A stretch of DNA of 9,386 bases from Candidatus Micrarchaeum sp. GTDB lineage: Archaea > SpSt-1190 > DYHY01. Location of the stretch: the NCBI GenBank assembly GCA_020723935.1, contig DYHY01000029.1, positions 1 to 9,386 of the forward strand, read 5' to 3'. The notes beneath the pieces are model-generated. The model saw nothing but the letters and a program-made list of their open reading frames with translations. It had not been told where the DNA came from and searched no databases. Numbering within the stretch: the first letter of the stretch is position 1; the number at the start of each line of letters is the position of its first letter. Both the position numbers and the translations under genes were made by a program. Below are positions 795 to 9,386 of this stretch, piece after piece.

Positions 795-1133
795 ATGGAA
801 AAAAAGGCCCCCTTGAAGCTCCCGCGCCCCGTCCTCGTCGTCCCGGCGGCGTACCTCGCGGCGACGATGATCCTGTTCTCACTTCACTACGTTCTCGGGA
901 GGCTCGCGGTCCTGAGCCCCGCCTCCTCGATCGCCGGGGGGATATTGGCAGTCCTCAACCTCCCCGGCTCATTCGCCACGGAGCCCTTCGGCCCCGGGGA
1001 GCCCTGGAAATTCATATCGCTCGCAGGCGCAAACATCGTGTTCTACGCGCTGGTTGGCACCGTTGCGGAGCTCGCAATGATCAAGAGCAAGCCGTTCAGG
1101 AAGGAGCCCGTCGTCCCCCGGCTCAAACAGTGA
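795..1133 (+). CDS. Small hypothetical membrane protein (112 aa)
   Basis: The start is the ATG just downstream of a TATA-like box. The N-terminus is basic (M-E-K-K), followed by a long hydrophobic segment at about residues 12-36, a second, weaker one at about 43-58 containing L-N-L-P-G, a polar loop with Pro/Gly/Glu (59-71), and a third segment at about 73-95 with N-x-x-F-Y-A-L-V-G. A basic tail ends the protein. This pattern (hydrophobic helix, LN.PG loop, then N...Y..vG helix) is familiar from many small prokaryotic membrane proteins of unknown function. No catalytic motif is seen. The last 11 bases overlap the end of the convergent DUF357 gene, so the two transcripts are complementary at their 3' ends. 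It is very likely a real gene, with function unknown. Confidence 0.7.
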   Translation: MEKKAPLKLPRPVLVVPAAYLAATMILFSLHYVLGRLAVLSPASSIAGGILAVLNLPGSFATEPFGPGEPWKFISLAGANIVFYALVGTVAELAMIKSKPFRKEPVVPRLKQ

Positions 1134-1401
1134 ATATTTCCTTCGCCGATTCGTCCGAGAGCTTGAGGGCTCCGAGGTGCAGGCCCGCGTCCAAGTAGCC
1201 CCAGCATATGACGGCGGCTTCGAAAGCCTCGATGAATTTCCCCTTGGAGAGGAAATGCCCCCCGTCGGAGAGGTAGGATCTGGCGAGGAGGAGGACCTTC
1301 TCGGCCCGCGCATCCTTCCCCGCGAGCCTCACCGCGGCGAGCGCCCGCCCGCTACGCTCGATCTCCTTCCTCGCGGCCGCCTCGATGGCGGGGTCAGTCA
1401 A
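1123..1401 (-). CDS. DUF357 family protein
   Basis: This is a 92-residue, mostly helical, soluble protein. Residues about 34-80 carry the pattern of the archaeal DUF357 family: A-R-S-Y-L-S-D-G-x-x-F-L-x-K-G-K-F-I-E-A-F-E-A, then W-G-Y-L-D-A-G near the C-terminus, reading as a helical hairpin. The family has no established biochemical role that I can state. The start is TTG at 1399-1401. The TTG overlaps the end of dphB (8-bp overlap, TTGACTGA), and there is no ATG in the frame. A purine-rich aggggt lies about 7 bases before it and may act as a Shine-Dalgarno site. The arrangement points to translation coupled to dphB. The gene's 3' end overlaps the convergent membrane protein gene by 11 bp. 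The family call is from remembered motifs. A role linked to translation is only suggested by its operon partner. Confidence 0.8.
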   Translation of the reverse strand: MTDPAIEAAARKEIERSGRALAAVRLAGKDARAEKVLLLARSYLSDGGHFLSKGKFIEAFEAAVICWGYLDAGLHLGALKLSDESAKEIFTV

Positions 1402-2173: not shown

Positions 2174-3223
2174 ATGCGAAGGAAGAAGGATGCCGCCGCC
2201 GGGAGGAAGGAGCCGGCAAGCCCGGGGAAGCTGGCCGTCAGGGTTGCGAGCGCGGATGCGGAATCCGCTAGGCGCAGGCTCGCGTCGGAGGGCTTCCTCG
2301 ACCCGTCGCGCAAGGTCTCCCGGGGGGCGGGGTTCGTCCTCTTCCCTGTCATCGCGAAGCCCGAGGGCCTGCCCCGGGGCATGCGCACAGTCAGCGCCGA
2401 TCTTCCCGCCCAGAAGAACCAGAACCAGTCCCTCGCAAAGAGGCTCTCAGGGATCCTCTCCTCGGGCTCGTTCTCCAAGTCATTCGACATCGTCGGGACG
2501 GTCGGGATACTGGACGTCTCCGGCCTCTCGCCCGAGGAGCAGGAATACGCCGCGGGCGCCCTCAGGCAGGTCTATTGCAGCCTAACTGCCGTCTGCACGC
2601 GGGCGGGGAACATTGAGGACGAATACAGGGTGAGGCCCCTCAGGCTGATATACGGCAAGTCCACCGAGACGATCCATCCCGAGAACGGCGTAAGGCTGAA
2701 GCTTGACCCGGCCATAGCCTACTTCTCCGCGAGGCAGGCGGCGGAGAGGGCGCGCGTCGAGTCCCTCGTCGGGAAGAACGAGGAGATCCTCGTTATGTTC
2801 GCCGGCGTCGGCCCCTTCTCCATACTGATCGCGAAGCGCCACCCGGACTGCAAGGTAACTTCCGTCGAGCTAAATCCTGCGGCAGTGCAATATATGGAGG
2901 AGAACATATCCCTCAACAAGGTCGGGAGGAACAGCGTCGCCATCGAAGGCGACGTTGCGAAGGCAGTCCCGCCTCTGGGGAAGAGATTCGACAGGGTGAT
3001 AATGCCCCTCCCCAAGAGCGCCGGGGATTTCCTCGACGTCGCCCTCGCCGCGGCGAGGCCCGGCGCATTCATCCATTTCTACTCCTTCGGCAGGGATTTC
3101 TCGGAGACAAGGGCCCTTCTCGGGAGGAAGCTCCCCGGCGCGCGGATACTTGGCATGCGCAGATGCGGCGCGATCGCGCCCGGAAAGTTCAGGCTGGTCT
3201 TCGACGTCAGGCTCCCCGAATAG
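2174..3223 (+). CDS. trm5: tRNA (guanine37-N1)-methyltransferase, Trm5/COG2520 family
   Basis: This enzyme methylates N1 of guanosine 37 next to the tRNA anticodon using S-adenosylmethionine, which prevents +1 frameshifting. In some archaea relatives take part in wyosine synthesis. Of 349 residues, about 18-100 form a variable N-terminal region. Then comes the family block E-D-E-Y-R-V-R-P-L-R-L-I-Y-G (148-161), T-E-T-I-H-P-E-N-G (164-172) and A-Y-F-S-A-R-Q with E-R-A-R-V (182-195). The Rossmann domain follows: motif I F-A-G-V-G-P-F (209-215), the acidic E-L-N-P (232-235), and M-P-L-P-K-S-A (277-283) at the substrate-binding loop. Two details differ from the characterised M. jannaschii enzyme: V-M-F-A-G replaces D-M-F-A-G, and M-P-L-P replaces N-L-P. 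Both occur, as I recall, in another archaeal COG2520 subgroup, so a different modification (for example a wyosine-type step) is possible. The ATG lies about 34 bp after the TATA box. A terminator hairpin follows. Confidence 0.88.
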   Translation: MRRKKDAAAGRKEPASPGKLAVRVASADAESARRRLASEGFLDPSRKVSRGAGFVLFPVIAKPEGLPRGMRTVSADLPAQKNQNQSLAKRLSGILSSGSFSKSFDIVGTVGILDVSGLSPEEQEYAAGALRQVYCSLTAVCTRAGNIEDEYRVRPLRLIYGKSTETIHPENGVRLKLDPAIAYFSARQAAERARVESLVGKNEEILVMFAGVGPFSILIAKRHPDCKVTSVELNPAAVQYMEENISLNKVGRNSVAIEGDVAKAVPPLGKRFDRVIMPLPKSAGDFLDVALAAARPGAFIHFYSFGRDFSETRALLGRKLPGARILGMRRCGAIAPGKFRLVFDVRLPE

Positions 3224-4758: not shown

Positions 4759-5244
4759 ATGGACAGGCTGGGCGAGACGTGGCGGGCGGGGATTTCCTTC
4801 GGTTCGACCTCCGGGATAATAACGACGCTGGGCCTCATGGTCGGTCTCAATTCCGGGACCCATTCGCGCCTCGTCGTCATCAGCGGGATACTCACGATCG
4901 CGATCGCCGACGCCCTCTCCGACGCTCTCGGGATGCACATCGCCGAGGAGGCCGAGAACAAGCACACCGTCCTGGAAATCTGGGAGTCAACCTTCGCGAC
5001 CTTCGCATCCAAGCTCTTCTTCGCCCTGACGTTCCTGGTGCCCGTCCTCCTCCTCCCCCTTGACGCCGCGATCATCGCGGCGATCGGATGGGGTCTCTTC
5101 CTCCTCGCGACCCTCAGCTACCTGATAGCGAAGGCCGAGAAGGAGGCGCCCTGGAAGGTGATAGGGGAGCACCTGCTCATATCGGTGATAGTCATCGTGG
5201 TCACCAACTTCGTCGGCTCCGCGATACGCCACTGGTTCGGCTGA
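4759..5244 (+). CDS. VIT1/CCC1-like membrane protein (putative Fe/Mn transporter)
   Basis: This 161-residue, five-segment membrane protein has the motif G-S-T-S-G-I-I-T-T-L-G-L-M-V-G-L (15-30), I-A-I-A-D-A-L-S-D-A-L-G-M-H (47-60) and E-E-A-E-N-K-H (63-69), a pattern I associate with an archaeal VIT1/CCC1-like group. Likely membrane segments are at about 14-31, 37-58, 80-100, 103-124 and 138-157. Classical VIT1 proteins move Fe2+ or Mn2+ out of the cytosol in exchange for protons. Here the Asp expected in the first-segment motif is replaced by Ser/Thr, and the long cytoplasmic metal-binding domain is absent, so transport of iron is only inferred. The Asp pair in segment 2 and the Glu-rich stretch after it could bind metal. 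The start is uncertain: a GTG at 4738 would add seven residues and lies nearer the promoter, but ATG is preferred because homology begins after it. It is followed after 6 bp by the methyltransferase-like gene. Confidence 0.8.
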   Translation: MDRLGETWRAGISFGSTSGIITTLGLMVGLNSGTHSRLVVISGILTIAIADALSDALGMHIAEEAENKHTVLEIWESTFATFASKLFFALTFLVPVLLLPLDAAIIAAIGWGLFLLATLSYLIAKAEKEAPWKVIGEHLLISVIVIVVTNFVGSAIRHWFG

Positions 5245-5250
5245 CGGGAG

Positions 5251-5793
5251 ATGGCGCGCCCCGACCCGAGGCTTGTCTCCCCCCTCCTGATGTGGGCCGC
5301 CGTCCTCGCCGGATGCGCGGCCCTCCTCGCCATCGTCCCCCGGGCCGCCCTTCCCTTGCCCAGGTTCCTGTGGATCCTCGCGATCCCGGCGGCCGTCAAC
5401 TGGCTCTGTTTCTTCCCGGCGGCGGTCAGGGAGAACGGGCGGGCAGCGTTGAGCGCCGCGCAGACGAGGAGGCTTGCGACCGGGAGCGTCTATTCGGCGG
5501 TCCTGCACCCAATCTATTCGGCCGACATAATCCTGGCCTAGGGGCTCCTCCCCGCGTTCCCCTCCGCCCGCCTCCTCGCGTGCGCCGCGTGGCTGACGCT
5601 CGTCCTTTCCTTCTGGATGCGTCTGGAGAAGGATGCGCTCCTGGCGAGGTTCGGGAAGGAGTACGAGAGATACCGCGCGAGGACGCCGGGGATGTTCCTT
5701 CCGGATTATTCCAGGCTCCTCGGCTTCCCGCCGGCCCGGCCGGGATTGAAACGCTTATTAATGGGTACCCGCGGACGCAGGAACCGAAGATGA
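5251..5793 (+). pseudogene. Isoprenylcysteine carboxyl methyltransferase (ICMT)-like gene, interrupted by in-frame TAG
   Basis: The ATG has gggag close upstream and lies 6 bp after the VIT1-like gene, so the two form an operon. Before the stop are two hydrophobic segments (about 9-30 and 38-58) and the ICMT/PEMT-type motif G-S-V-Y-S-A-V-L-H-P-I-Y-S-A-D-I-I-L (79-95). Codon 97 (5539-5541) is TAG. The same frame then continues with a hydrophobic stretch (98-122) and the C-terminal family signature L-E-K-D-A-L-L-A-R-F-G-K-E-Y-E-R-Y (125-141) with T-P-G-M-F-L-P-D-Y (145-153). It ends at TGA 5791-5793, overlapping the next ATG. Both halves are needed for the S-adenosylmethionine site, so the 96-residue product should be inactive. 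One G-to-A change from TGG would explain the stop. A recent mutation, a sequencing error or recoding are the options. TAG is a plain stop in two other genes here. In the arginine-histidine-proline motif the Arg is Leu. The substrate is unknown. Confidence 0.75.
5754..5762 (+). promoter_or_regulatory. TATA-like box for the acidic protein gene
   Basis: The A/T-rich cttattaat is centred about 32 bp before the ATG at 5790, inside the 3' end of the ICMT-like frame. The acidic protein may therefore be made from its own promoter as well as from the upstream operon. Confidence 0.55.
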
Positions 5794-5951
5794 AAAAGGA
5801 AGTCCTGAAGAAGGGAGCCGCGGAAAACGACGAGTCCGAGGAAGACGAAGAATCCTCCGAGGAAGACGACATTCCGACCGAAGACGAGAAGGACGAGACC
5901 GGGGAAGGGGACGACGAGGCTGGGGAAGAGGACGACTCGGACGGGTTCTGA
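5790..5951 (+). CDS. 53-residue highly acidic protein
   Basis: After a basic head (M-K-K-E-V-L-K-K) the protein is almost all Glu, Asp, Ser and Gly: 27 of 53 residues are acidic and 5 are Lys, for a net charge near -22. It has no hydrophobic core and must be disordered alone. The start is supported by a TATA-like box about 32 bp upstream and by an ATGA overlap with the stop of the ICMT-like frame. It is not an extension of an upstream frame. Highly acidic tails occur in chaperones, in DNA-mimic proteins and in Ca2+/Fe-binding proteins. With VIT1-like and ZIP genes on either side, binding divalent metal is a reasonable but untested guess. No family is recognised. Confidence 0.65.
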   Translation: MKKEVLKKGAAENDESEEDEESSEEDDIPTEDEKDETGEGDDEAGEEDDSDGF

Positions 5952-5998
5952 GCCCCAGGAAGTCTGCCGGAGAAATTTTGCCAGCTAGCCCGGCCGAG

Positions 5999-6754
5999 TC
6001 ATCCGACGAGAAGGAGAACGTACATCAGGCCCATTCCGAACAGGAACGCGGCCAGCTGCATCGCAGATTTCCCTGGGGAGGTCTCCTTGTGGAGCTCCGG
6101 GATGAGGTCGCTTCCGGCTATGTATATGAAGCCCCCCGCCGCGAACGGCACGAGGAACGCGCTCATGCCCGGGACGTACGAGTCCATTGAAACAGCAACG
6201 ATCGTCCCGAGCACGGCCGTGAGCGAGACGAGGAAGTTCATGAGGAGCGCTTTGGAGACGGAGAAACCCCCGTGCACGAGGACGCCGAAGTCGCCCAGCT
6301 CCTGCGGTATCTCGTGGAGGACGACCGCTATCGTCGTCGCGATTCCGATCGGGATGCCGGCTAGGTAGCTAGCTCCTATCACCAGGCCGTCTATGAAGTT
6401 GTGGACCGAGTCTCCGACCAGGTTCATGTAGGCGAAGACGTGCGGATGCTCGCGGGTCGACTCCTGGTGGCAATGGTGCCAATGAATGAACTTCTCGACG
6501 ACGAAGAACAGGGCCACTCCGGCAAGGGCCGCGGACGAGACGCCCAGCCCGAAGCCTCCTGCGTCCCTCGCCGCTTCCGGCAGGAGGTGTATGAAGGCAT
6601 CCCCGAAGAGCGCGCCGCAGGAGAAGCTGACGAAGAGGAAGATAGCCTTCCTGAGGCCTTCCATCTTCATCTTCAAGCTTATCACGCCTATGAAGGAGAT
6701 CAGGCTGACTATTATGACGCTCACGAGCGAGTAGACCCAGATGGAGGCGTCCAT
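5999..6754 (-). CDS. ZIP family divalent metal transporter
   Basis: This 251-residue protein has eight predicted membrane segments and the ZIP family metal path: H-N-F-I-D-G-L (118-124) in segment 4 and H-E-I-P-Q-E-L-G-D-F (147-156) in segment 5, providing His118, Asp122, His147, Glu148 and Glu152. A His-rich loop, H-W-H-H-C-H (91-96), lies between segments 3 and 4, as is common in the family. The H-E-I-P-Q-E signature resembles the LIV-1/KE4-type branch. ZIP proteins carry Zn2+, Fe2+ or Mn2+ into the cytosol, and the metal here cannot be told. The ATG at 6752-6754 keeps segment 1 whole. However, the nearest TATA-like box is only about 16 bp upstream, so a GTG at codon 11 (6722-6724) may be the real start. 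It is convergent with the acidic protein gene, 47 bp away. ZIP would bring metal in, whereas VIT-type proteins remove it. Confidence 0.93.
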   Translation of the reverse strand: MDASIWVYSLVSVIIVSLISFIGVISLKMKMEGLRKAIFLFVSFSCGALFGDAFIHLLPEAARDAGGFGLGVSSAALAGVALFFVVEKFIHWHHCHQESTREHPHVFAYMNLVGDSVHNFIDGLVIGASYLAGIPIGIATTIAVVLHEIPQELGDFGVLVHGGFSVSKALLMNFLVSLTAVLGTIVAVSMDSYVPGMSAFLVPFAAGGFIYIAGSDLIPELHKETSPGKSAMQLAAFLFGMGLMYVLLLVG

Positions 6755-6765
6755 CCGTCGCGGCC

Positions 6766-6774
6766 CTTTATATG
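6766..6774 (-). promoter_or_regulatory. TATA-like box near the ZIP gene
   Basis: On the minus strand the sequence reads catataaag, a good archaeal TATA match, but its centre lies only about 16 bp before the annotated ATG. The predicted transcription start would fall near 6744, inside the gene, which favours a start at the GTG 6722-6724. Confidence 0.55.
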
Positions 6775-6824
6775 TTTTGCCGAGTTTTGCGAATCAGCTA
6801 AAAGTGCCCGCCCAGCGCGCCAGG

Positions 6825-6843: not shown

Positions 6844-7467
6844 TCAGGGCACCCGCTTTCCGGCCGGCTTCTTGCCCTTGCCCGTCGCCCGTTCCTTCGC
6901 CTTCTCGATCTTCATGTAGGTGGCCCACACGACGAGGGCGAGCTCCAGGAATATCGCAAGGAACCTCACGAACTTGTTGGAGAGGTCAGCGTACCTGAGC
7001 GTGCCATAGGCCATGAGGATTATGCCGCCGTACATAAAGCCCGTCCCGATGGAGTCTATCCTCTCCGGCGCGAGGACGCCGAAGATGAGCGCCGCCGAGC
7101 CGAAGATGACGGCGACTATGAAGAAGACAAGGTTGTAGCTCTTCCTCGCCGCTTCCAGGCCCACCTGGCAGGTGTTGCACGAATACGACGCCGGGCAGCT
7201 GGCGTTCTCGGCGTAGGAGTATTCGAAATACCCTCCGGAAGCCTGGCAGTCTACTTCTTGCGCCGGCGAGGGGCTTATCGCGATGCAGTTGCCGGGCGCG
7301 TATGCGCCGTCCGCCTTCGGCTGCGAAAGGTAGGGGGCTGGCCTCTGGGGCGCGCAATATTTCTCGTACGTGGGCTCGGAGAGGAACAGGTCCGTCCCGA
7401 GGACGACGAGGAACGAGAAGAAGATAGCGATCGATATTATCAGCGCGGCGCGCTTTATGTCTGCCAT
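6844..7467 (-). CDS. Hypothetical four-segment membrane protein with a six-cysteine outer domain
   Basis: The 207-residue protein begins at an ATG 26 bp from a TATA-like box. The frame is open a further 37 codons upstream, but those would cross the promoter. Segment 1 is at about 6-28. Residues 30-108 form a soluble domain with six cysteines (38, 61, 74, 91, 97, 100) and many Tyr, Pro and Ala, probably outside and disulfide-bonded. Segments 2-4 lie at about 112-133, 138-157 and 167-186, with I-D-S-I-G-T-G-F-M-Y-G-G-I (137-149) and G-T-L-R-Y (155-159). The tail is strongly basic (K-G-K-K-P-A-G-K-R) and cytoplasmic. From memory this layout (Cys-rich loop, then G-x-G-x-x-x-G-G-I and G-T-x-R-Y) resembles an uncharacterised membrane protein frequent in DPANN genomes. 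No enzymatic motif is seen. It is divergent from tnaA. Confidence 0.75.
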   Translation of the reverse strand: MADIKRAALIISIAIFFSFLVVLGTDLFLSEPTYEKYCAPQRPAPYLSQPKADGAYAPGNCIAISPSPAQEVDCQASGGYFEYSYAENASCPASYSCNTCQVGLEAARKSYNLVFFIVAVIFGSAALIFGVLAPERIDSIGTGFMYGGIILMAYGTLRYADLSNKFVRFLAIFLELALVVWATYMKIEKAKERATGKGKKPAGKRVP

Positions 7468-7571: not shown

Positions 7572-9050
7572 ATGGCAAGGACCGGCGCGGACGGATCGTT
7601 CAGGCTCGCAAGTCGCGGAGTGCCCCCCTTCAAGACCAAGATGACGGAGCCGATACTGGCCGTCGGCCTCGGCGTCGGGGAGCGGCTCGCGATCCTTAGG
7701 AAGGCGAAATACAACCTCTTCTCCGTGAGATCCGCAGACGTAGCCCTAGACTTCCTCACCGATTCGGGCACGGGCGCGATGAGCCAGGAGCAGTGGGCCG
7801 CGATGATGGTCGGGGACGAGGCGTACGCGGGCGCTACGAGCTTCACGAGGTTCGCTGGCGCCTTCAGGAGGATAACCGGGCTGAGGTACGTCCTTCCGGC
7901 CCACCAGGGCCGCGCGGCGGAGAGGAGCCTTTTCGAGGGCCTGAAGGCGAGCGGCAGAATAAGCGAGGATTCCATAATCGCCTCCAACGCCTTTTTCGAC
8001 ACGACGCTGGGCTGGGCGAGCTCCTTTTGCAGGTGCGAGAATCTCTATTGCGGGGATTTCGAGGCTGGGAACACGGTTGAGCGCCCGTTCAAGGGCGACC
8101 TGGAGCTCTCGCGCCTGAAAAGGCTTGCCTCCGAGAACCCTGGGAAAGTAGGCCTCGTCCTCCTAACGATAACGAACAACACGGGCGGCGGGCAGCCGGC
8201 GAGCATGGCGAACATAAGGGAGCTTTCTGGGTTCTGCAGGAAGGAGGGGATACTGTTCTTCTTCGACGCGTGCAGGTTCGCGGAGAACGCCTATTTCATC
8301 CACGAGCGCGAGCCCGGCTACGCGAGGAAGACGATCAAGGAAATCGTCTGGGAGATGTTCTCATATGTCGACGGCGCGACGTTCAGCGCGAAGAAGGACG
8401 CGAGGACTAACATCGGCGGCGCGATCCTCTTCTCCGCCGGGCACGAGAAGCTCTATCTCGCCTGCAGGCCCTCGATAATCAGGAACGAGGGGCTCTTCAC
8501 GTACGGCGGGATGGCCGGCCGCGACCTAGAGGCCGTCGCTCGGGGGATAGAGGAGACGACCGAGCTCCAGTACCTGCGGTCGCGTGTGGGGCAGGTGGCT
8601 ACGCTCCACGGTCTCCTCGCCGGGATGGGCGTCCCTTTGGTGAGCCCCGCCGGCGGACACGCCGTCTACATTGACGCCAAGGAATACCTCGCGCGTGTGC
8701 CCGAGAGCGAATACCGCTCGGACACATTGGCCCTCCTGCTCTACGCGATGGGCGGCATAAGGAGCGTCGCAATCGGGAACATGATGTACGCGAAGAAGGA
8801 CGCGAAGGGGCGGATCCTGGAGCCCGCCAAGAACGATTTCGTGCGCCTGGCGATACCGAGGAACGTCTATTCGCTGGATCACATGCTCTACGCCGCGGCC
8901 GTTTTCGGGAAGGTCGGCCGCGCGAAAGAGGCGCTACGCCGCGGAGTGCGCGTCGGACCCGGATTCCGAAACGACCATTTCGACCATTTCGACTGCGCGA
9001 TGGAACTCGCCGACAAGAAGGATTTCGAGAGGGCGGCGCAATCCGCCTGA
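7572..9050 (+). CDS. tnaA: Tryptophanase (beta-eliminating lyase)
   Basis: This cytoplasmic pyridoxal-phosphate enzyme splits tryptophan into indole, pyruvate and ammonia. The 492 residues (E. coli TnaA has 471) follow the family from end to end: P-P-F-K-T-K-M-T-E-P-I (18-28), F-L-T-D-S-G-T-G-A-M (61-70), G-D-E-A-Y-A-G (81-87), A-H-Q-G-R-A-A-E (110-117), N-N-T-G-G-G-Q-P (202-209), D-A-C-R-F-A-E-N-A-Y (232-241; Asp232 for the cofactor ring nitrogen), S-A-K-K-D-A (272-277; Lys275 is the expected cofactor lysine), Y-G-G-M-A-G (311-316), A-G-G-H-A-V (360-365) and R-L-A-I-P-R (425-430; Arg430 for substrate carboxylate). Tyrosine phenol-lyase, the close relative, has Arg381 in its M-E-R-G motif. 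Here the site reads V-A-I-G (399-402) with Ile401, as in tryptophanase. A His near 469-472 matches TnaA His463 rather than the lyase's Phe448. The N-terminal family motif requires the start at 7572. The C-terminal tail is about 14 residues longer than in E. coli. Confidence 0.93.
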   Translation: MARTGADGSFRLASRGVPPFKTKMTEPILAVGLGVGERLAILRKAKYNLFSVRSADVALDFLTDSGTGAMSQEQWAAMMVGDEAYAGATSFTRFAGAFRRITGLRYVLPAHQGRAAERSLFEGLKASGRISEDSIIASNAFFDTTLGWASSFCRCENLYCGDFEAGNTVERPFKGDLELSRLKRLASENPGKVGLVLLTITNNTGGGQPASMANIRELSGFCRKEGILFFFDACRFAENAYFIHEREPGYARKTIKEIVWEMFSYVDGATFSAKKDARTNIGGAILFSAGHEKLYLACRPSIIRNEGLFTYGGMAGRDLEAVARGIEETTELQYLRSRVGQVATLHGLLAGMGVPLVSPAGGHAVYIDAKEYLARVPESEYRSDTLALLLYAMGGIRSVAIGNMMYAKKDAKGRILEPAKNDFVRLAIPRNVYSLDHMLYAAAVFGKVGRAKEALRRGVRVGPGFRNDHFDHFDCAMELADKKDFERAAQSA

Positions 9051-9200
9051 GATCGGGCCGGCCGGATGAGGCCTTCTGCAAGATACTGTGGCGTCCTCCG
9101 CGGAGGACCTGCGCGCTACGCTCCGGCAGGGGGCTGAGGGAGTTGCGGCGACCGCGAGGTCCATGCGCCACGCAGTTATGGCTTGCCGTAAGATAAGGTG
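9051..9200. other. Non-coding region between tnaA and the repeat array
   Basis: This stretch holds no credible gene. It includes the imperfect inverted repeat gtcctccgcggaggac (9091-9106), an exact 16-bp palindrome that could form a hairpin after tnaA, though without a T-run. A possible decayed copy of the 82-bp unit begins near 9126. Confidence 0.5.
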
Positions 9201-9386
9201 GTGCAGGGGGAGGCCGCGCCCTCGGGCGAGGTCCGTAGCGACCGCAGGGCGCGAAGCCCTGCGCGACGAGCGCTAGCGAGGAGTGCAGGGGGAGGCCGCG
9301 CCCTCGGGCGAGGTCCGTAGCGACCGCAGGGCGCGAAGCCCTGCGCGACGAGCGCTAGCGAGGAGTGCAGGGGGAGGCCGCGCCCT
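9201..9386. repeat. 82-bp tandem repeat array with internal hairpins (runs off the window)
   Basis: Units at 9201-9282 and 9283-9364 are identical across all 82 bases, and a third starts at 9365 and is cut by the window end after 22 matching bases. Each unit holds a perfect 8-bp hairpin with a five-base loop (9243-9250 with 9256-9263 in unit 1), a second stem around cgccc-tc-gggcg with one G-A mismatch in its extension (about 9214-9231), and the 8-bp palindrome cgctagcg (9271-9278 in unit 1). Since 82 is not a multiple of three, the array cannot encode a regular repeat protein. There are no unique spacers. Upstream, 9126-9162 shares gcaggggg and gcgaggtcc in the same order and may be a decayed copy. 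Confidence 0.93.

Follow-up and report, generated by a model that had tools for sequence, protein, structure and literature searches.

A perfect 82-bp tandem repeat whose units end in the tail of a tRNA-Leu, and its counterparts behind other archaeal tRNA genes

The end of an archaeal contig is occupied by head-to-tail repeats of 82 bp, raising the question of what these units represent and how they came to be amplified. The window, by which we mean the whole stretch of DNA that was analysed, is the entire contig C8 (9386 bp) of genome G000, a 1.14-Mb assembly in 47 contigs whose gene content, including Trm5 and diphthine-synthase-like genes, is archaeal. The original prediction had described two identical complete units followed by the start of a third, had attributed them to recent amplification or homogenisation, and had listed several possible functions. 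TRF and a repeat search agree on the arrangement, with a period of 82, 2.27 copies (2.3 by TRF), 100% matches and zero indels across positions 9201-9386, and the complete identity of the units bears out the proposal of recent amplification or homogenisation. Because the window comprises the whole of C8, the array runs off the contig. The features of this region are as follows.

7572-9050, plus strand: gene for a beta-eliminating lyase (tryptophanase-like; PF01212, 6.5e-55)
9126-9200, minus strand: probable decayed tRNA-distal unit (0 of 500 shuffles reach its score)
9201-9282, minus strand: complete 82-bp unit 1, read on this strand as trailer, then copy of the tRNA-Leu(UAG) 3′ end
9283-9364, minus strand: complete 82-bp unit 2, identical to unit 1 (repeat search, TRF)
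9365-9386, minus strand: opening 22 nt of a third unit, truncated where the contig ends (repeat search)
9202-9213, minus strand: copy 1 of the last 12 nt of tRNA-Leu(UAG), CCTCCCCCTGCA (sequence; tRNA at C20:31-115)
9284-9295, minus strand: copy 2 of the tRNA-Leu(UAG) 3′ end (sequence)
9366-9377, minus strand: copy 3 of the tRNA-Leu(UAG) 3′ end (sequence)
9243-9263 and 9325-9345, no strand assigned: 8-bp hairpin with a GCGAA loop, CGCAGGGC-GCGAA-GCCCTGCG (sequence)
9220-9231 and 9302-9313, no strand assigned: second short stem, CCTC-GGGC-GAGG (sequence)
9271-9278 and 9353-9360, no strand assigned: palindrome CGCTAGCG (sequence)

The hairpin with its GCGAA loop, the second stem and the palindrome are therefore all present as originally described. 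The G+C content of the unit is 77% (63/82), and the 82-nt unit folds no better than its own dinucleotide shuffles (z = -0.27), such that the hairpins are what this G+C content would give. The earlier view that the array is neither coding nor a CRISPR is also upheld. The units follow one another head to tail with identical content, there are no differing spacers, and Cas1 was not found; a coding repeat and a partition array are likewise ruled out on anatomy. Among the functions that had been listed, a dispersed repeat, a repeated small RNA and a recombination site are still live options, and a partition, origin or nucleoid-binding array is unsupported. Rfam yields no match at gathering score in the window array. 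A search for the 82-mer in the rest of the genome revealed that it recurs at the start of contig C9 (98% over 128 nt, a second and slightly diverged array end) and at the start of contig C20 (100% over 43 nt), and the unit is thus not private to one contig end. Among 101 genomes, G000 provides the sole match (0 of the 100 others). A 21-base junction pattern found no match in genome_contigs, and four patterns found none in viral contigs.

What had been missed is that each unit, on the minus strand, ends in the 3′ end of a tRNA-Leu. The plus-strand sequence TGCAGGGGGAGG at positions 9202, 9284 and 9366 is the reverse complement of CCTCCCCCTGCA, which constitutes the last 12 nt of the G000 tRNA-Leu(UAG); the tails of the remaining tRNA-Leu genes found in this genome differ from it. 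The tRNA-Leu(UAG) gene resides on the minus strand of C20, with a 3′ end that reads ...GAATCCCTCCCCCTGCA, and C20 starts 31 nt downstream of this gene with bases that correspond to the 82-bp unit at 100% identity. As C20 begins in a unit and reads into tRNA-Leu(UAG), the array represents the 3′ trailer of that tRNA, in which, on the minus strand, the tRNA is followed by repeats of a segment made up of 70 nt of trailer and 12 nt from the tRNA 3′ end. The assembly is broken by the array, and we therefore infer the link between C20 and C8 from sequence, the two sides of the junction never occurring within one contig. The 82-bp array is nevertheless almost certainly a tail array of tRNA-Leu(UAG), and the tRNA itself remains intact whatever number of units follows.

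Adjoining the perfect units, the probable decayed unit contains a 22-nt exact match (9147-9168) to the decayed distal unit of a tRNA-Leu(UAA) array on contig C29, and positions 9126-9137 resemble a decayed tRNA 3′ end. The lyase gene lies next to the array and is convergent with it and the tRNA; we treat it as a neighbour, and it may have arrived within an inserted span. At the other end of the window, positions 1-169 contain a 48-bp coding tandem repeat that is 97% identical, within an ORF that is open at the contig start and encodes AEAPMEEAKAPMEEAK-type repeats. A Trm5-like gene (2174-3223) resides on this same contig, and in G001, a genome of a sister genus in the same family, a Trm5-like gene directly adjoins tRNA-Leu(UAG) (C1:8230-9108).

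The second point absent from the original prediction is that the same architecture occurs at many tRNA genes. We scored the recurrence of each tRNA's own 3′ tail within the downstream 300 nt, using a threshold of at least 12 matching nt and a null distribution in which tails were permuted among tRNAs (5,000 permutations). By this measure, an own-tail copy lies downstream of 8 of the 39 testable tRNAs in G000 (permuted mean 0.00), 10 of 34 in G001 (permuted mean 0.15) and 12 of 36 in G002, which belongs to a third family of the class (permuted mean 0.17). None was found among the 29 tRNAs of G003, from another family of the same class, and an upstream control gave no own-tail copy scoring 8 or above. 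When 30 tRNAs were sampled from G002 and G004-G006, two scored at least 10, both from G002. Trailers in these genomes also have features of their own: those of G002 (L224-L252) start with a stem-loop followed by TTGAYCAAAA(ACGCG), a motif also seen in G004, and those of G003 are often simple G+C-rich hairpins.

Within G000, tRNA-Leu(UAA) on C29 is followed by 60-bp units that each terminate in the tail of this tRNA, the array being interrupted by an assembly gap; tRNA-Arg(UCG) by a perfect tandem of 53-bp units, with three tail copies before the contig end; tRNA-Pro(CGG) by a perfect tandem of 75-bp units up to the contig end; and tRNA-His by two 54-bp units, with other tRNAs having one copy. 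In G001, a tRNA-Leu on C56/C64 is followed by 124-bp units in perfect tandem. Five contig ends in G000 lie at most 250 nt downstream of a tRNA, compared with 0.9 expected (p about 0.002), which fits arrays that are too long or too uniform to assemble. The direct repeats vary in length from 8 to about 26 nt, and the clearest copies in G001 run from the T-loop or T-stem to CCA.

Between a tRNA and its tail copy, G001 typically has 100-180 bp of sequence that can be assigned to recognisable families. Element A comprises a first stem-loop (of the CTTTCTTTT/AAAAGAAAG type), which is followed by TCACC(C)AAGAAAA and additional hairpins; CGTTGC then precedes the tail copy. Element B reads CCGCAGGGGG...CCCCCTTCAG...CCTGATTCCCCC. 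The two can be stacked behind one tRNA, in either order (G001 C1, C57 and C59). Tandem growth therefore takes two forms, one in which different elements are stacked and one in which a single unit is repeated perfectly, as in the window and in the tRNA-Arg, tRNA-Pro and C56/C64 arrays. A covariance model of the 5′ part of element A has 27 matches in G001, most of them directly behind tRNAs, and no match in the 12 further archaeal genomes scanned, which include G000. Three of the 27 are in tandem behind a box C/D-like sRNA on G001 C48 (L166, approximately 900-1330, minus strand). This sRNA, which was recognised by eye and has no Rfam match at its locus, reads GATGATGA...CTGA with flanking GCC/GGC, and its 3′ end, GTCTGAGGCA, is copied; insertion targets may thus take in small RNA genes other than those for tRNAs. 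The first stem retains its pairing despite changing sequence, with a complementarity of 7.33 bp for its own arms and 5.66 bp for swapped arms (maximum 6.54 of 5,000), and two of the three G001 elements tested fold better than shuffles (z about -3.7).

Element B also occurs in G000, behind tRNA-Gly(GCC), where it resembles two G001 copies to a degree that 0 of 500 shuffles reach. The similarity of element A between G000 and G001 is unconvincing (its score is matched or exceeded in 18 and 29 of 500 shuffles), and so element B alone is claimed to be common to both genera. Neither element A nor element B can be recognised in the 82-bp unit, whose sole relatives are the tRNA-Leu(UAA) units (0 of 500 shuffles); this likeness, together with the shared 22 nt, could also reflect an ancient duplication between tRNA-Leu loci. 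Terminal inverted repeats were not evident in the elements. REP-like palindromic doublets (of the CCCAAATTGC..GCAATTGGRCCCAGT..ACTAGGG type) are present in the loops of some G001 elements (L167, approximately 13017-13063; L153, approximately 7880-7925), and we read these as nested insertions.

Some tail copies enclose genes, in the following arrangements.

G001 C28 (L163): tRNA-Leu, element A, tail copy at 890, five genes with element A, tail copy at 4990, GMP synthase gene at 5024-6823, tail copy at 6846
G001 C1: tRNA-Leu, element B, tail copy, half of an element A with RHH and ParE-family genes, tail copy
G001 C39: tRNA-Glu, Fic protein gene, tail copy
G001 C39: tRNA-Ser, element, HEPN and nucleotidyltransferase (MNT) genes, degenerate tail copy with another element
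G000 C30: tRNA-Gly(GCC), unit, tail copy, element B with a 117-aa ORF (no Pfam match), tail copy, first unit again, tail copy

The GMP synthase gene is bounded precisely on both sides by a copy of the tRNA-Leu 3′ end, its stop codon preceding the second copy by a few nucleotides, and it may be a resident gene that was caught between copies.

In G000 and two related genomes, then, trailer elements are flanked by copies of the 3′ end of their own tRNA at many tRNA genes, and related element sequences are found behind different tRNAs. These arrangements were probably produced by insertion (or duplication) of elements at tRNA 3′ ends, followed by tandem amplification, which is the reading that we favour. 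Small mobile elements, mostly gene-less with a few carrying genes, would target the 3′ ends of tRNAs and of at least one other small-RNA gene, and each insertion would give rise to a direct repeat of the tRNA tail, from about nt 57 to the 3′ end. With such a repeat in place, repeated insertion or unequal recombination plus slippage could build a perfect tandem array like that of the window. Insertion is preferred to plain duplication mainly because elements are shared, elements are stacked, an sRNA gene has the same arrangement, and genes lie between copies. Direct evidence pointing to insertion is thinner for the array in the window. Counting against insertion are that no integrating enzyme was found, that terminal inverted repeats are not evident, and that the direct repeats vary in length.

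A more specific proposal, which we advance only tentatively, is an archaeal cassette system in which structured elements, with or without genes, would be inserted repeatedly at the 3′ ends of tRNAs (and C/D sRNAs) by an enzyme outside the recognised tyrosine and serine recombinases and Cas1, building integron-like arrays with the tRNA tail as the shared site as well as perfect tandems such as the 82-bp one. The recombinase search covered G000 and G001, and positive controls were found. At the cut-offs used, neither genome contains a tyrosine recombinase (PF00589), Cas1 (PF01867) or a serine recombinase (PF00239), the last having one sub-cut-off match in G001. Since the assemblies are 91% (G000) and 84% (G001) complete, this absence is not proof. 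Conversely, G003 encodes five PF00589 proteins, yet lacks the tail-copy pattern. We also considered and rejected a reverse-transcriptase route: there is one RVT_1 protein in G001 (C6, L156, 3775-5130) and none in G000 or G002, and, judged by its sequence, it presumably belongs with the reverse transcriptases of diversity-generating retroelements.

Several known systems share parts of this architecture. A resemblance to integrons may lie in the stacking of short structured elements, and of genes such as those for toxin-antitoxin pairs, between copies of a short shared site, as seen in G001; unlike in integrons, the anchor is a tRNA 3′ end instead of attI, most spans are gene-less, and no IntI-type tyrosine recombinase was found in G000 or G001. 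Casposons, the Cas1-solo transposons (A. boonei tRNA-Pro, M. mazei), likewise insert at tRNA 3′ ends with direct repeats. The A. boonei casposase targets the 3′ end of tRNA-Pro in a Cas1-dependent manner and recognises TCAAATC, and the target-site duplication is 14-15 bp, 8 bp beyond this motif (PMC6614799). TCAAATC is also the T-loop motif in the tRNAs described here, but the copies often reach into this motif or the T-stem, in G001 usually ending at CCA, and neither the terminal inverted repeats nor the Cas1 of casposons were found. A casposon was consequently rejected on the lack of PF01867 in G000 and G001, the different position of the duplication and the lack of terminal inverted repeats. 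REP/BIME and MITE sequences are similarly short, structured and gene-less, and differ in that the elements described here are bound to the 3′ ends of RNA genes with an end copy and have no evident terminal inverted repeats.

An alternative that we consider unlikely is plain tandem duplication with no mobile element, in which slippage or unequal crossing-over copied a tRNA 3′ end and its trailer, and the break points set the unit length. The units of the window and of tRNA-Arg, tRNA-Pro and tRNA-Leu(UAA) are perfect local tandems that are tRNA-specific, and the 82-bp unit has no distant relative outside the tRNA-Leu family, as this process would predict. It would not explain why the sequence after the tail copy is unrelated in many single copies, why unrelated tRNAs have elements in common and element B is common to two genera, or why elements also occur behind the C/D-like sRNA and genes between tail copies. 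Moreover, the 5′ edges of the copies cluster in the T-loop and T-stem, which random duplication does not predict.

Less probable again is that the array is kept for a repeated small RNA, with a precursor read through from the tRNA promoter being cut at each tail to release one trailer RNA per unit. The closest known architecture is that of the E. coli tyrT repeats, which are 178 bp long, each contain AATCCTTCCCCCACCACCA, corresponding to tRNA-Tyr nt 58 to CCA, and are annotated on the chromosome (L264) as RtT sRNA, a processing product of the tyrT transcript. Here too, tandem units directly downstream of a tRNA gene each carry its 3′ end, and the copied part begins near the copy edges seen in G001. 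The pairing retained by the first stem and the two G001 elements that fold better than shuffles would also suit an RNA product. The 82-nt unit, however, has no such folding excess, units are wholly different between tRNAs and unrelated to RtT, and no Rfam match was obtained. Unlike the single tyrT locus, the archaeal arrays involve many tRNAs, several element families and genes between copies.

An integrase crossover in the T-loop would leave direct repeats that extend from the T-loop to the 3′ end, and the tail copies could accordingly be viewed as remnants of ordinary tRNA-targeting integrative elements whose integrase-bearing members are gone or outside the assemblies. Archaeal elements of this type commonly leave partial tRNA copies, the intact tRNA lying at one end of the element and a 3′ fragment at the other, and span 9-23 kb (PMC9897764). 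The spans described here are mostly 53-180 bp rather than kilobases, perfect tandems occur, related elements are found at many different tRNAs of one genome and at an sRNA gene, and the five PF00589 proteins of G003 accompany no such pattern. A tyrosine-integrase element was rejected on the absence of PF00589 from G000 and G001, despite the tRNA 3′ repeat at the far end and a possible donor outside the assembly, and we judge this origin very improbable. Finally, an assembly artefact or a vector or other contaminant is hardly credible even though the array lies at a contig end in a metagenome-type assembly, because the unit bears the tail of this genome's own tRNA-Leu(UAG) and has no match in the other genomes and contig collections searched, and comparable arrays are found away from contig ends as well as in related genomes.

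To our knowledge, the tyrT repeats of E. coli have until now been a single-locus curiosity, and we found no description of archaeal tRNA-tail repeats in the open-licence literature. In three archaea that have small genomes and belong to one class, between about a fifth and a third of tRNA genes show a comparable architecture, and the tail arrays would account for the breaking of contigs at tRNA trailers. As elements are common to genera and genes are present in some arrays, the origin of tRNA-tail repeats becomes testable by strain comparison. The arrays would imply either an unrecognised insertion enzyme that is specific for tRNA ends or a strong hotspot of duplication at tRNA 3′ ends.
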